From positions 1 through 38,467 of the forward strand of contig CANKLZ010000006.1 of NCBI GenBank assembly GCA_947483795.1: a DNA stretch of 38,467 nucleotides, given 5' to 3'. Below are positions 31,820-37,300 of this stretch, piece after piece; within the stretch, counting starts at the first letter, position 1; every line of letters begins with the position of its first letter. The notes under the pieces were generated by a model that did no database searches, was not told the DNA's origin, and saw only the letters and a list, made by a program, of their open reading frames with translations. This stretch comes from Micrococcales bacterium. Its GTDB lineage: Bacteria > Actinomycetota > Actinomycetes > Actinomycetales > Microbacteriaceae. A program made the translations under genes and the position numbers.

Positions 31820-33050
31820 ACCCATAAAGCAGTTATCTCTAGCGGGGGCTGTGGCAATTGGCATGGCCTCAATGCTTGGGGCAGGTGTCTTCTTTGTCTG
31901 GTCAACAGCTTGGGATCAAGCAGATGACAAAATCTTTATCGCTTTGTTCCTTGCTGCATTAGTAGCGTCGTTGAATGCAGCCTCTGTCTATCAACTTGCC
32001 AGCAACGTTTCAAGAGCTGGTGGAGTGTATGCATACTCTCGCGTTTATCTGCCTAATGGATTTAGCTTCATAGCTGGCTTCGCTTTTGTCTTTGGCAAGA
32101 TTGCATCGATTGCAGCAATTGCACTAATTATTCAAACCTATTTACTGCCAGGATCACATCTAGCGACCATTGCTGTAATAGCTATGACCTTGCTGAATCT
32201 ATTTGGTATCAATAGAACAGCTCAGATGGCTGCAGTGATTGCAATCGTTACTGTTTCTTTCCTTATCTTCAGCATCACAGTTGGTTTCGGTAGTGGCTTT
32301 AGTGTTTCTGAATTCAACCCGAGCATGCTATTGCCTTCTATGGAGCTCTCAACTCTTTCAGCGGCTTCACTTATCTTCTTTGCGTTCGCAGGTTATGCCA
32401 GAGTGGCAACCTTGGGCGACGAGGTCAAAGACCCTCAGAAGAACATTCCTAGAGCAATTTTGATTTCCCTATCTGCCGTCTTAGGCATCTATTTACTCAT
32501 TACCATCGTGGTGGTCGGAGCAATCAACACAGGCAATGAACCGATGCCTCCAGCTGTTTTTGAAACTCTCTTGCTTGTCAGTGCACCTTGGTTCAATCCA
32601 GTAATCATCGATGTGGTTGTTGTCTTAGCTTCACTAGGTTCAATACTTGCTCTACTAGCCGGGGTCTCTAGAACAGCTGCGACTATGGCTGAAGATAAGG
32701 AACTACCTAGTGTCTTTGCCAGTAGAAACAGGTTTGGAGCTCCCTGGTTAGCTGAGGCTCTAATTGCCATAGGGGCGGTTACCTTGATTGAAACCCGTGA
32801 ATACACAACCTGGGTCATAGCTTTCTCCAGCTTTAGCGTGCTTCTGTATTACGCAATCGGTCACATCAGCGTCCTAGCGCAACCTATAGGTGAGCGCAAA
32901 CAGCCTAGGTTTATAGCTGTTCTAGGCTTTATCCTCTGCACGGTTCTGCTGTTGAGTGTGCCAGGTCCTGCTGTATTGATTTCAACGGTTATCCTCGTGA
33001 TTGCCTTTGGGGTTAGATCTGCCTTGCGGGCAGTGGCTAAGCACAAGTAG
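31806..33050 (+). CDS. APC-family amino acid/polyamine permease
   Basis: A 414-residue protein with about 12 hydrophobic segments. The N-terminal TM1 break GMASMLGAGVFFV is the substrate/cation-binding motif of the amino acid-polyamine-organocation superfamily, and TM6 contains FFAFAGYARVATLGDEVKDP, a family-typical stretch (E in DEVKDP followed by NIPRAI). The substrate is unknown. The ATG at 31806 is inside the end of prs (14-nt overlap), so it should be co-translated with it. No permease is found at this place in Mycobacterium, so it is an accessory insertion in an otherwise conserved order. Confidence 0.92.
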   Translation: MATSKPIKQLSLAGAVAIGMASMLGAGVFFVWSTAWDQADDKIFIALFLAALVASLNAASVYQLASNVSRAGGVYAYSRVYLPNGFSFIAGFAFVFGKIASIAAIALIIQTYLLPGSHLATIAVIAMTLLNLFGINRTAQMAAVIAIVTVSFLIFSITVGFGSGFSVSEFNPSMLLPSMELSTLSAASLIFFAFAGYARVATLGDEVKDPQKNIPRAILISLSAVLGIYLLITIVVVGAINTGNEPMPPAVFETLLLVSAPWFNPVIIDVVVVLASLGSILALLAGVSRTAATMAEDKELPSVFASRNRFGAPWLAEALIAIGAVTLIETREYTTWVIAFSSFSVLLYYAIGHISVLAQPIGERKQPRFIAVLGFILCTVLLLSVPGPAVLISTVILVIAFGVRSALRAVAKHK

Positions 33051-33073
33051 ACTGCTTTAGAAACAACGGCGAG

Positions 33074-33090
33074 GGTTACAAATCGTAACC
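33074..33090 (+). promoter_or_regulatory. Inverted repeat upstream of rplY
   Basis: GGTTAC (33074-33079) and GTAACC (33085-33090) form a perfect 6-nt inverted repeat with a 5-nt centre, about 85 nt before the rplY ATG. The remaining gap contains a second small stem, GCGT-AAC-ACGC, at about 33129-33139. No T tract follows, so a terminator is unlikely; an operator or a leader structure for the ribosomal-protein gene is possible. Confidence 0.35.
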
Positions 33091-33173
33091 GTAATCGACG
33101 GGGTCAAGGCTTTAGAGCCAGGGTTCCTCGCGTAACACGCTTGAGTTGAACACCTAAAGAAATGGAATAACTC

Positions 33174-33752
33174 ATGTCAGTAAACAAATTAGTAGGCGAA
33201 TTCCGTACCAGCTTTGGTAAAGGATCAGCCCGTAAGTCAAGAGCAGCTGGAAGAACTCCTGCAGTTATCTACGGTCACGGCTCAGAGCCACGTCACATCA
33301 CACTTCCAGCTCACGAGATTGCACTTGTGCTTCGTCACAAGAACGCAATCATCGAACTAGAGCTAAACGGTAAGAAGGAAACTGTTCTTGTAAAGAGTGC
33401 ATCTAAGGATGTTGTTACTCAGATCATCGAACACGTTGACCTTGTTGAAATCGTTCTAGGTGAAAGAGTTCACGTTGAAGTTCCAGTACACGTTGTTGGA
33501 GAGTCAATCTCAGGAACTGTTATCGATCTAGAGCACAAGACCCTAAAGCTAGAAGTAGATGCAACCACTATCCCTGAATACGTTGAAGTTGTCTTCAACA
33601 AAGAAGGACTTGGTTTCCACGTTCTAGCCAAGGACATCGTTCTTCCTGCTGGGGCAAAGCTGGACTTCGCTCCAGATGAGCTAATCGCATCTGTAGTTGG
33701 AACCGGTGCTGGTGCATCTGAAGATGCAGCTGAAGCTCCAAAGGCAGAGTAG
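33174..33752 (+). CDS. rplY: 50S ribosomal protein L25 (CTC/TL5 form)
   Basis: A 192-residue protein of the long L25/TL5/CTC type that binds 5S rRNA. The N-terminal domain (about 1-95) contains GKGSARKSRAAGRTPAVIYGHG and the LVKSASKDVVTQIIEHVDL strand-helix; the C-terminal beta domain follows, ending in an Ala/Glu-rich tail (SEDAAEAPKAE). The ATG 33174 follows GGAATAAC, a weak SD. Codon use is the most biased of the region, as expected for an abundant protein. The stop TAG at 33750-33752 is 2 nt before the inferred non-AUG start of pth. Confidence 0.97.
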   Translation: MSVNKLVGEFRTSFGKGSARKSRAAGRTPAVIYGHGSEPRHITLPAHEIALVLRHKNAIIELELNGKKETVLVKSASKDVVTQIIEHVDLVEIVLGERVHVEVPVHVVGESISGTVIDLEHKTLKLEVDATTIPEYVEVVFNKEGLGFHVLAKDIVLPAGAKLDFAPDELIASVVGTGAGASEDAAEAPKAE

Positions 33753-33754
33753 TT

Positions 33755-34333
33755 ATCTCTACTAAGACTTATCTAATAGTCGGGCTCGGCAACCCCGGGC
33801 CCGACTATTCTCACAACCGGCATAACGTCGGGCAGATGGTCTTAGACGTTCTTGCTCAAAGAACCAGTGCAACATTCAAACAACACAAAGCTCATGCCAT
33901 GGTTGCTGAAGGCAAACTAGGTCAAGGCTTTGATGCTCCAAAACTTGTGCTAGCCAAATCCCTGGGATACATGAACACCTCAGGTGGACCGGTAGCTAAC
34001 CTTCTAAAGTTCTATGACCTAAAGCCAGAGAACCTAATTGTTATTCACGATGAACTAGACATCGATGCAGGTACACTAAAGATCAAGTTCTCTGGTGGAC
34101 ATGGTGGTCACAATGGCCTGAGAGATATCATCAGTGCCATAGGCAATGATTACATCAGACTCAGAGTGGGTATCGGTCGTCCACCAGGTCGCATGGACAC
34201 AGCAGATTTTGTTCTCCAAAACTTCAACTCAACTGAAAAAGAAGAACTCCCAACCACTCTTGAAATAGCGGCAGATATGGTTGAGGCTATTGCCACCATT
34301 GGCTTAGCTGAAGCCCAACAGAAATACCACTAA
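33755..34333 (+). CDS. pth: Peptidyl-tRNA hydrolase with inferred non-AUG (ATC) start
   Basis: Peptidyl-tRNA hydrolase, which recycles peptidyl-tRNA dropped by ribosomes and is normally essential. The first in-frame ATG (33836) would give 165 residues lacking LIVGLGNPG and the catalytic His in NRHNVG. Reading upstream restores STKTYLIVGLGNPG and then DYSHNRHNVGQ, but between the in-frame stop TGA 33731-33733 and 33836 there is no ATG, GTG or TTG. The best candidate is ATC 33755-33757, giving 192 residues, the normal family length, with AAAGG about 10 nt upstream. Other motifs (GYMNTSGGPV, HDELDIDAG, SGGHGGHNGLRDI) are intact. ATA 33776 is a less likely start. Confidence 0.85.
   Translation: MSTKTYLIVGLGNPGPDYSHNRHNVGQMVLDVLAQRTSATFKQHKAHAMVAEGKLGQGFDAPKLVLAKSLGYMNTSGGPVANLLKFYDLKPENLIVIHDELDIDAGTLKIKFSGGHGGHNGLRDIISAIGNDYIRLRVGIGRPPGRMDTADFVLQNFNSTEKEELPTTLEIAADMVEAIATIGLAEAQQKYH
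33775..33809 (+). promoter_or_regulatory. Perfect 11-bp hairpin within the first codons of pth
   Basis: AATAGTCGGGC (33775-33785) pairs perfectly with GCCCGACTATT (33799-33809) around a 13-nt loop that can extend the stem by CGG/CCG. It starts 20 nt after the inferred ATC start and 23 nt after the rplY stop, inside codons for LIVGLGNPGPDYS. No T run follows. It may act as attenuator, RNA-processing site or translational control element. Confidence 0.65.
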
Positions 34334-34344
34334 CCAAATCAACT

Positions 34345-34350
34345 TAGACT
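34345..34350 (+). promoter_or_regulatory. Candidate -10 box (TAGACT) for mfd
   Basis: TAGACT lies 6 nt before the mfd ATG at 34357, in the 23-nt gap after pth. There is no Shine-Dalgarno, so a leaderless mfd transcript is likely. Confidence 0.45.
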
Positions 34351-34356
34351 TATCCA

Positions 34357-37300
34357 ATGGATGCGATAAAAGTTTCTGAGGGGTTGTCGCGCCTTGTCGC
34401 ACGCGTTTCAGATGCTTACCCATTTGTTCAGGTGAGTAAAGGGCTAAGTGGTAAGCGTTTAGAGGTAGTAGCCCCTACCGGAGCCCAACCCTGGATCTTG
34501 AGCGCTATTGCAGATCTTCGTCAATCAAAGAAGCTTTCTCAGCAAGCTCTTATCGTTGTTAGCTCAGGTCGAGAAGCAGAAGATCTAGTTGAGTTCCTGT
34601 TTTCAACTAACCCAGATGCTGAAATACTAGAGTTTGCGTCATGGGAAACACTTCCCCATGAAAGGCTTTCCCCATCAGCTGAGACCGTTGGTAGAAGACT
34701 AAAGACACTGCACCGGCTCAACGAGCTCAACAAAGACAACAGCAACAAGCAAGTCTTTGTTATCGCATCCATCAGGTCTGCTTTGCAACCAGTGGTTCTA
34801 GGCCTTGCTGATTACCCACCCTTGAGCTTGAAGGTATCAGGGGAGTATCTTCTTCCTGAACTGACATTGAAGCTTGTTGAGATTGCCTATCAAAGAGCTG
34901 ACATGGTTACTAAGCGTGGAGAGTTTGCTGTTCGAGGTGGAATTCTAGATATCTTCCCAACTACCTCAGCGCACGCTATTCGTCTTGAATTCTTTGGTGA
35001 CGAGTTAGAACAGATGAGAGAGTTCAGCGTTGCTGACCAAAGATCTCTTGATGGCAGACCAAACGAACTAACCATCTACCCAGCCAGAGAAATCATCATT
35101 ACCCCTGAGGTAGCACTTAGAGCTAGAGAAATGGAACATGAGTTTCCCAATCTTTCAACCATGCTTGCCAAGATTGGTCAAGGTATTCCAGTTGATGGAA
35201 TGGAATCTTTAGCTCCAGCATTAGTTGGTTCTTTGGGTCAGATTTCTGACTATATGGCTAAAGATGCTTACGTAGTCCTCTTATCACCAGAGAAATCGAT
35301 GGCCAGAGCTGCCAACCTGATTGATACCAATGAAGAGTTCTTACATGCTGCCTGGGATGCTGCTTTAGAAGGGGCTAAGGCTCCTATTGATCTAAGTGCT
35401 GGCGGCTTCAAGACTTTGCATGATTTCACAGTGGGCCTTGATGACAGACAGCTCATAAGCATCTCAGCCTTCTTGGCTGATGAGACGCAGCAGATACAGC
35501 TAAACCTTCTAGAGATACCTAACTTCAAAGGGTTGGATGTTGAACCAGTTGATTACATCGCAGACCAACTAGATAATGGTCAACAGGTTGTTATTGCTTC
35601 CCCCGGCCATGGAACAGCAGAGCGTATATCTGAATTACTTCAGGCAGCCAAGATACCTTCAAGGGTTTTAGAGGAGCTTCCTGAATCGTTAGCGAGTGTT
35701 GATGACAAGGTAACCGAAGTTATCCTGATCCAAGCTCCGATTAGAAAAGGTTTTGCATCTAGCGATGCAAAACTCATTCTTCTAACCGACAGTGATTTCT
35801 TTGGGCGAGGTGCTGGCTATAACCAAGCTAAGCGACCAAAGCTGGCAGCTAAGCGTGGCCAAGCGGTTGACCCACTTGCTCTAAAGTCAGGGGACTATGT
35901 CGTTCATGAGATTCATGGCATTGGTCGCTTTGTTGAGATGGTGCAGAGACAAATGGGTGTTGGCACACACAAGCACACGAGAGAGTATCTGACTATTGAA
36001 TACGCTCCATCAAAGAGAGGTCTCTCTGGAGATGTACTTTATGTTCCAACTGATCAACTAGATTTCCTAACTAGATACGTAGGCGGAGAAGCACCGGTAC
36101 TGTCTAAGATGGGCGGCTCTGACTGGTCCAAGGTCAAAGGCAATGCTAGAAAAGCAGTTCGCAAGATTGCTATTGACCTGGTGAAACTATATTCAGCAAG
36201 AATGAACGCCAAGGGCCATGCCTTTTTGCCTGACACTGCTTGGCAAAGAGAAATGGAAGATAGCTTCCCATTTGTTGAAACCCCTGACCAACTAAACACA
36301 GTGGAAGAAATCAAGAGAGACATGGAACGACCAGTTCCTATGGATCGACTGGTTGCTGGAGATGTTGGCTACGGTAAGACAGAGATTGCCATTAGAGCAG
36401 CCTTCAAAGCGGTTCAAGATGGTAAGCAGGTTGCCGTGCTAGTGCCAACCACGCTGTTGGTGAGACAACACGTTGAAACCTTCATTGAAAGATTTGCTGG
36501 TTTCCCAGTTAATGTAAGAGCACTCTCTAGATTCCAAACCGCAAAGGAATCTAAGGAAACGGTAGCAGCCCTTGCTACGGGTGAAATTGATGTTGTGATT
36601 GGAACACACAGACTGCTATCAAGTGGTTTGAAGTTTAGAGATTTAGGACTAATCATCATTGATGAAGAGCAACGCTTTGGTGTTGAACACAAAGAGAAGC
36701 TCAAAGACATGAAGACGAACGTTGATGTTCTCTCTATGTCAGCTACCCCTATCCCTAGAACTCTTGAGATGGCAATTACTGGCATTAGAGAGATGTCCAC
36801 TCTCGCAACCCCTCCTGAAGAGCGTCATCCAATCCTTACCTACATAGGCCCATACAACGAAAAGCAAGTAGCAGCCGCTATCCATAGAGAACTCATTAGA
36901 GAAGGTCAAGTCTTCTTTGTTCACAACAGAGTGGACTCAATAGATAAGGTTGCATCCCAACTAGCAGAGCTAGTTCCAGAGGCAAGAATTGCCGTTGCCC
37001 ATGGCCAGATGAACGAAGGTCAACTAGAGCAGGTTGTCATTGACTTTTGGGAAAGAAGATATGACGTCCTGGTTGCAACAACAATCATTGAAGCAGGAAT
37101 AGATATTCCCAATGCCAATACTTTGATTGTTGATAGATCTGAGAACTTTGGTCTATCGCAACTGCACCAAATAAGAGGTCGAGTAGGTAGATCCAGAGAA
37201 CGTGCATACGCATACTTCTTATACTCACCAGATAAGCCACTATCTCCTTTTGCATTAGACAGACTCTCAACCATTGCAGCCAATAATGAACTTGGTTCAG

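Follow-up and report, generated by a model that had tools for sequence, protein, structure and literature searches.

Initiation factor IF3 discriminates against triplets other than AUG, GUG and UUG (PMC4611024), and in Escherichia coli the efficiency of ATT is about 0.3% of that of ATG (Hecht 2017, cited in PMC10666635). Bacteria very rarely use near-cognate starts: according to an analysis of 36 genome triplets, of 61,358 ancestral AUG starts two became CUG and one became AUU (PMC5622118). Among the closest described systems is E. coli infC, the gene with an AUU/AUC-type start and IF3 autoregulation; the pth gene of E. coli K-12, for peptidyl-tRNA hydrolase (Pth), starts with GTG, a milder weak start. 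Pth clears the peptidyl-tRNAs that drop off early in elongation, with RRF and RF3 involved (PMC10192219), and drop-off at the first codon is described as governed by IF3, EF-G and RRF (PMC10158994). A start codon may also be reached by termination-reinitiation from the preceding gene. In the gene pairs that Huber et al. tested, reinitiation depended strongly on distance and was nearly abolished at about 20 nt (PMC10666635). In this work we analysed a pth gene that lies directly behind rplY in a 38,467-nt stretch of DNA from a bacterium of the Microbacteriaceae (hereafter the window), and compared its start region with those of its relatives.

Results

The pth frame in the window

The rplY gene for ribosomal protein bL25 (general stress protein Ctc family; NF004131, 203.6 bits for a cut-off of 189) occupies positions 33174..33752 of the forward strand, on which all features described here lie, and ends with the stop codon TAG 33750-33752. 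The frame behind it encodes a Pth1 peptidyl-tRNA hydrolase, as its product matches PF01195 over the full length of the profile (1-183 of 183; 210 bits, cut-off 27), scores 193.3 bits with NCBIfam TIGR00447 (cut-off 100) and resembles solved Pth relatives. A profile search found one pth only in the draft genome of the window. The frame opens after an in-frame TGA (33731..33733) and reads AGC TCC AAA GGC AGA GTA GTT ATC TCT ACT AAG ACT TAT, then CTA ATA GTC GGG CTC GGC AAC CCC GGG CCC GAC TAT TCT CAC, and lastly AAC CGG CAT AAC GTC GGG CAG before its first ATG (33836..33838, Met28). Codon reading thus bears out the original prediction, coordinates included, that no ATG, GTG or TTG lies between this TGA and this ATG.

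Read from ATC 33755..33757, 2 nt past the rplY stop, the protein has 192 amino acids (pth, 33755..34333) and covers positions 2-171 of the 172 in TIGR00447. Read from ATG 33836 it covers only positions 23-171 and lacks Asn13 (AAC 33791) and His23 (CAT 33821), both encoded upstream of that ATG, which we take to be active-site residues of Pth. The GLGNPG and RHNVG motifs, which align with those of the solved Pth 2lgj, are kept only if initiation occurs upstream of 33836. We rejected ATG 33836 as the start because its product would lack the active site, a loss that the original prediction had foreseen; its choice of ATC 33755 as the best start agrees with the full-length TIGR00447 match and with the same codon in relatives. 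As far as position alone is concerned, these comparisons make ATC 33755 very probably the start of pth. A Shine-Dalgarno-like AAAGG (33740..33744), still within the 3' end of rplY, precedes the ATC by 10 nt, and the region from -20 to -5 pairs with the 16S tail at -5.4 kcal/mol in its best duplex.

The start codon across the genus

Sixty-seven genomes of the same genus were searched; 57 had a pth match and 55 a readable pth N-terminus, the two others (G042 and G054) ending before it. At the expected start, mostly 27 nt ahead of the GLGNPG codons, the 55 loci have CTG (30), ATC (7), ATG (11), TTG (5) or GTG (2). The start is canonical in 18 of them, while 37 have a non-canonical codon of the class discriminated against by IF3 and no canonical in-frame alternative. 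The rule applied always preferred a canonical codon 15-36 nt upstream, and G053 and G020 are thus counted as TTG despite a CTG at the usual place. ATC is found in the window (G000) and in G047, G066, G065, G035, G016 and G061, and the six members of this set long enough for the Pth tree form one clade (SH-aLRT 100); G043 and G055 have CTG at the aligned codon. Several records of named relatives carry the label Rhodoluna. Records L032, L033 and L034, which match G065, G016 and G047 and come from three different MAG sets, all have ATC, and the single-contig genomes G001, G002 and G026 have CTG there; an assembly error is excluded for practical purposes by these two observations. Close relatives with ATG at this codon would have spoken for such an error; the six closest all have ATC, yet ATG occurs in 11 of the 55 genus loci. 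The AUC start singled out by the original prediction is retained, but not as an isolated case: it belongs to a genus-wide and, at the family level, recurrent replacement, mostly by CTG.

CTG is invariant in 15 genus loci in which it lies 27 nt from GLGNPG without overlap of the rplY stop (one gap unmeasured), and five of the six other all-Leu columns of the same loci use three to five different codons; the sixth is CTC and lies inside the hairpin described below. In the ATC clade, five of eight Ile columns are invariant, so that the invariance of ATC in its seven loci has little power. That pth starts at this codon is well supported. Other near-cognate codons are present nearby, ATT at -30 in G016 and ATC at -30 in G061, and in some species such neighbours could share in pth initiation.

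The gap between the rplY stop and pth, 2 nt in the window, is at most 5 nt in 43 of the 54 genus loci in which it was measured. It ranges from -8 to +68 nt, with a short gap or an 8-nt overlap in most members of the genus, which is the close spacing of a termination-reinitiation pair. Right about the ATC, the original prediction had missed both this 2-nt spacing and the conserved hairpin. Mean Shine-Dalgarno pairing is stronger for non-canonical than for canonical pth starts, -4.1 vs -2.2 kcal/mol in the genus and -5.9 vs -5.0 kcal/mol in the family. One clade (G005, G057, G052 and G033; loci L009, L010, L011 and L137) has an ATG 15 nt before GLGNPG and 2-3 nt behind rplY.

Neighbouring genes, infC and initiator tRNA

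Neighbouring genes were compared in 18-kb stretches around pth from 20 relatives and the window, with gene names beyond pth and rplY assigned by look. Fifteen of 33 ORF clusters were scored (pth and 14 others), five had no conserved N-terminal stretch and 12 were judged to be shadow ORFs; in most of these 12, at least 80% of each member lies under a longer ORF, a status that is less clear for clusters 18 (6/10), 29 (2/6) and 32 (3/7). Of the 226 copies in the 14 neighbouring families, 221 have a canonical codon no further than 25 codons from the conserved N-terminus. The remaining five are copies of tatD, all ten of which have a canonical codon within 60 codons (in G000 and G066, an ATG 28 codons upstream). 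By the same test, 14 of the 21 pth copies have no canonical codon within 25 codons. Cluster 7, a real neighbouring gene outside the 25-codon test, has no copy without a canonical codon among 13. Further controls used 30 loci each: every rpmI found (29) has ATG or GTG, each of the 27 ychF copies found has a canonical codon no more than 8 codons away, and frr has a canonical start in 29, the remaining locus (L271) ending near the gene start; the rplT motif was found in none of 30. A general loosening of start choice was rejected, as neighbouring genes in the 18-kb stretches and the further control genes keep canonical starts. An odd initiator tRNA was also discarded, the usual anticodon arm being present in 60 of the 67 genomes. 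An eno-like gene (L235-L254) has a TTG start in all ten copies in which the motif was read, out of 12.

The infC gene starts with ATC in all 30 genus loci (L165-L194), after a strong AAGGAG-like site, which makes the comparison with infC drawn by the original prediction an apt one. This ATC is invariant, while the Ile codon five codons on varies between ATC, ATT and ATA. A canonical codon is present upstream of the ATC in the open frame of 14 loci, seven of which have an ATG 21-24 nt before it; the other 16 have no canonical in-frame codon upstream, one of these frames ending at the contig end. The draft genome of the window itself (81.77% complete) gave no infC match.

Other genera of the family

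Sixty-four loci from other genera of the family, the 24 best non-genus matches and 40 picked mostly as one per genus, have CTG (11), ATC (1), a canonical codon (50) or no candidate (2) at the pth start. The 12 non-canonical loci are spread over 12 genus codes; one of them, L216, is ambiguous, being scored CTG (-33) but having an ATG at -45. Of 80 named loci, 28 were used after exclusion of genus duplicates and most Arthrobacter; four of the 28 share their Pth with a genus or family row, two of these with CTG. CTG starts pth in four of the 28, including Lacisediminihabitans profunda (L082); two of the four duplicate rows of the other sets. When 142 of the 147 rows were placed on a Pth tree (five short ones absent), at least 16 switches between canonical and non-canonical starts were required, a rough figure as 54 of the 135 inner branches are weak. 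L232 and L105 have no start by our rule, and a CTG GAC further upstream may serve. The single-contig genome G258 (L205/L354, genus code g13) has CAA where the pth start is expected and an in-frame TAG before the usual C-terminus; the closest ATG lies within rplY, 51 nt before GLGNPG.

Two order-wide pattern searches on overlapping samples, which required one spacing as well as Trp and other fixed codons, matched 95 of 396 and 5 of 297 and so covered few pth genes; among these, no CTG or ATC case without a canonical start nearby was found outside the family. An ATG or GTG stands close to each of the two CTG matches outside the family and the five ATC matches (G513 belongs to the family); it was seen within the match in G513 and G500 and in the surrounding sequence in the other five.

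A conserved hairpin within pth

The pth message is predicted to form a hairpin with a 15-bp stem and a 5-nt loop at 33775-33809, whose 5' arm (33775..33789) begins at +21 from the ATC and is followed by the loop (33790..33794) and the 3' arm (33795..33809). Folding delineates all three elements, together with the synonymous-codon test and covariation for the 5' arm, alignment for the loop and covariation for the 3' arm. None of 200 shuffles folds as well as the surrounding 121 nt (z -5.3). The hairpin overlaps the codons of the conserved LIVGLGNPGPDYS, and protein conservation could in principle produce the stem. We compared each hairpin with random synonymous versions drawn with the pth codon usage of its group, a pass meaning that no more than 3 of 300 versions were as stable; 54 of the 55 genus loci, 41 of the 64 family loci and 16 of the 28 named loci passed. 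Because synonymous versions are rarely as stable, the hairpin goes beyond what the protein imposes.

Stem pairs change on both sides, in some cases with an amino-acid change (GGG-CCC, GGC-GCC and GGA-TCC; GTC-GAC and GTT-AAC). Covariation was scored on 45 rows picked from 87 distinct ones that had passed the energy test, a choice that leans towards structure: 98.7% of cells pair, cells changed on both sides number 43 vs 17.5 in shuffles, and the score exceeds those of all 500 shuffles and of all slid versions. Counted as stem pairs that vary on both sides, the signal is less striking: there are five, a figure reached by 28 of 500 shuffles. G-U pairs are common in the hairpin, which favours an RNA over a DNA palindrome.

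A covariance model of the hairpin matches pth in all 24 genus genomes that have pth, of 26 searched. Outside pth it gave seven matches in the 26 genomes (E 3e-7 to 0.096); the best, L352 (G001:C1:1372880-1372924), is a strong intergenic hairpin with a short T run, flanked by genes resembling the sugar-binding protein and the permease of an ABC transporter. Extended to the class, the search matched 93 of 296 genomes. Among these 93 matches the best 30 are all pth; ten of the 30 have a hairpin equalled by at most 2 of 200 synonymous versions, and eight of these ten are outside the family, with a partly shifted register. Several pth genes of other actinobacterial families (L327-L351) have a strong hairpin in this position, its loop being 4 nt long and its pairing register shifted. 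Rfam 15 gave three matches in 33000-34400, all far below the gathering threshold and none at the hairpin.

Pairing begins at +21 in 41 of the 49 non-canonical genus and family loci, and at +9 in the clade formed by G005, G057, G052 and G033. Position +21 is about the leading edge of a ribosome placed on the start codon. We take the hairpin to be a functional RNA element that most likely modulates the initiation step.

Discussion

Comparison of related genomes underlies the start position, its conservation and recurrence and the hairpin, and from these features we infer how rplY coupling, IF3 control and hairpin action might combine. Initiation of pth would take place at ATC 33755, presumably with fMet, at a codon of the class that IF3 discriminates against. 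Ribosomes would reach it by termination-reinitiation from rplY, via the upstream AAAGG, or both; coupling to rplY is not required, because 7 of the 12 non-canonical starts in the family sample are more than 20 nt from the rplY stop. The weak codon would set the output of Pth far below that of bL25. As bL25 is a ribosomal protein and presumably abundant, and Pth is a catalyst, a weak start right behind rplY would provide a low Pth:bL25 ratio. Since infC has the same kind of start, infC and pth would be expected to rise together in an IF3 shortage. The hairpin at +21 would either hold the ribosome on the weak codon or damp initiation. The arrangement suggests that weak initiation directly behind rplY is deliberate, and it is probably IF3-sensitive; the original prediction had already put forward low-level or IF3-sensitive expression. 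The whole combination of an ATC start with a low, IF3-sensitive output of pth we regard as somewhat probable.

The hairpin could also have a role unrelated to the start, for example as a protein-binding or RNase-cleavage site in the rplY-pth message, the weak start being independent of it. We consider this a real possibility, though not a probable one. It would account for the hairpins that accompany canonical starts (58 of 91 such rows pass the energy test) and for those of other actinobacterial families, some of which pair in a shifted register. Every one of the 53 non-canonical rows passes as well (the sets overlap by two), and the distance to the start is mostly +21; both observations go against an unrelated role although neither separates the two roles; the link between hairpin and weak start is not significant after kinship is taken into account (four independent pairs).

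According to another explanation, the weak start is merely tolerated: the nearby, heavily translated rplY supplies reinitiating ribosomes, and start strength has drifted without any IF3 regulation. In the genus, gaps of at most 5 nt, overlaps included, accompany 35 non-canonical and 8 canonical starts, and larger gaps 1 and 10 (Fisher 1.7e-5, kinship ignored), so that the rplY stop is within 5 nt for 35 of the 36 non-canonical starts with a measurable gap; on independent pairs, this spacing effect comes down to four comparisons without significance. Together with the steep distance dependence of reinitiation in the pairs of Huber et al. (PMC10666635), these counts speak for tolerance. The four genus loci with ATG directly behind rplY (gap 2-3 nt) likewise speak against regulation by a weak start. 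Drift fits poorly with a CTG that is invariant, unmixed with other codons, in 15 loci, and with the family cases more than 20 nt from rplY, and the 14 neighbouring gene families show no such drift. We regard mere tolerance as rather unlikely, and we retain regulation through a weak, IF3-sensitive start as the more probable reading.

Frameshifting or readthrough where rplY ends might be imagined to yield an L25-Pth fusion, given that the two genes adjoin or overlap each other and that the pth frame of many CTG species stays open into rplY. Such a fusion was rejected as very improbable: gaps from -8 to +68 nt make the relative frame vary within the genus, and several species have an in-frame stop shortly upstream, as in G016, where one precedes the ATC by 9 nt. 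Sequencing or assembly error, gene decay and a truncated ATG product, which the draft state of the window's genome (80 contigs, 81.77% complete) might have invited, are ruled out by conservation and active-site loss: six relatives from other assemblies have ATC, single-contig genomes have CTG, and the frame is intact in the only pth of the genome, which leaves an error or a decayed gene practically no credit.

We may speculate further that the Microbacteriaceae have a small IF3-sensed regulon made up of pth and infC, each with a start that IF3 rejects, and that the covarying +21 hairpin is a bacterial start-context element that enables near-cognate initiation at a set level. This is an unlikely proposal on present evidence; if it were true, a shortage of IF3 would raise initiation-factor and peptidyl-tRNA-recycling capacity together, and a shared IF3-sensitive start of infC and pth would connect drop-off, Pth and IF3.

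These results have several implications. Given the rarity of near-cognate starts in bacteria, pth provides here a natural experiment in start-codon strength: a normally essential enzyme has CTG or ATC not only in most sampled species of the genus but also in loci from a dozen further genera. Beside infC, it provides a second translation-related gene for tests of IF3 control, and the hairpin conserved within the coding sequence can be tested separately as an RNA element. An annotation pipeline restricted to ATG, GTG and TTG would truncate this essential gene past its active site. Among open-licence full texts and the titles and abstracts searched, a body of literature outside which most subscription papers lie, we found no non-canonical pth start and no such hairpin. 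Within that literature infC already exemplifies regulation by a near-cognate start, and the gene, the recurrence and the hairpin appear to be new.

The window pth is like other Pth1 peptidyl-tRNA hydrolases in its full-length match and conserved N-terminal motifs, and only its start codon and hairpin are unusual. Its short gap to, or 8-nt overlap with, rplY in most members of the genus resembles termination-reinitiation between abutting genes, from which it differs by a near-cognate start and by distances of 23-56 nt from rplY in several family members. In eukaryotes, downstream hairpins reportedly aid initiation at weak codons, as proposed by Kozak, and pth likewise combines a weak start with a stable hairpin that follows it at a short and nearly constant distance; unlike the eukaryotic case, bacterial ribosomes do not scan from a cap, and the effect of the hairpin in pth is putative. 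Among the closest parallels is E. coli infC, since in both a translation-factor gene keeps an IF3-discriminated start across species. The two differ in that Pth is not IF3, so that the putative IF3 control would act in trans, in that the pth of many species uses CTG, and in that pth carries a conserved hairpin inside its coding sequence.
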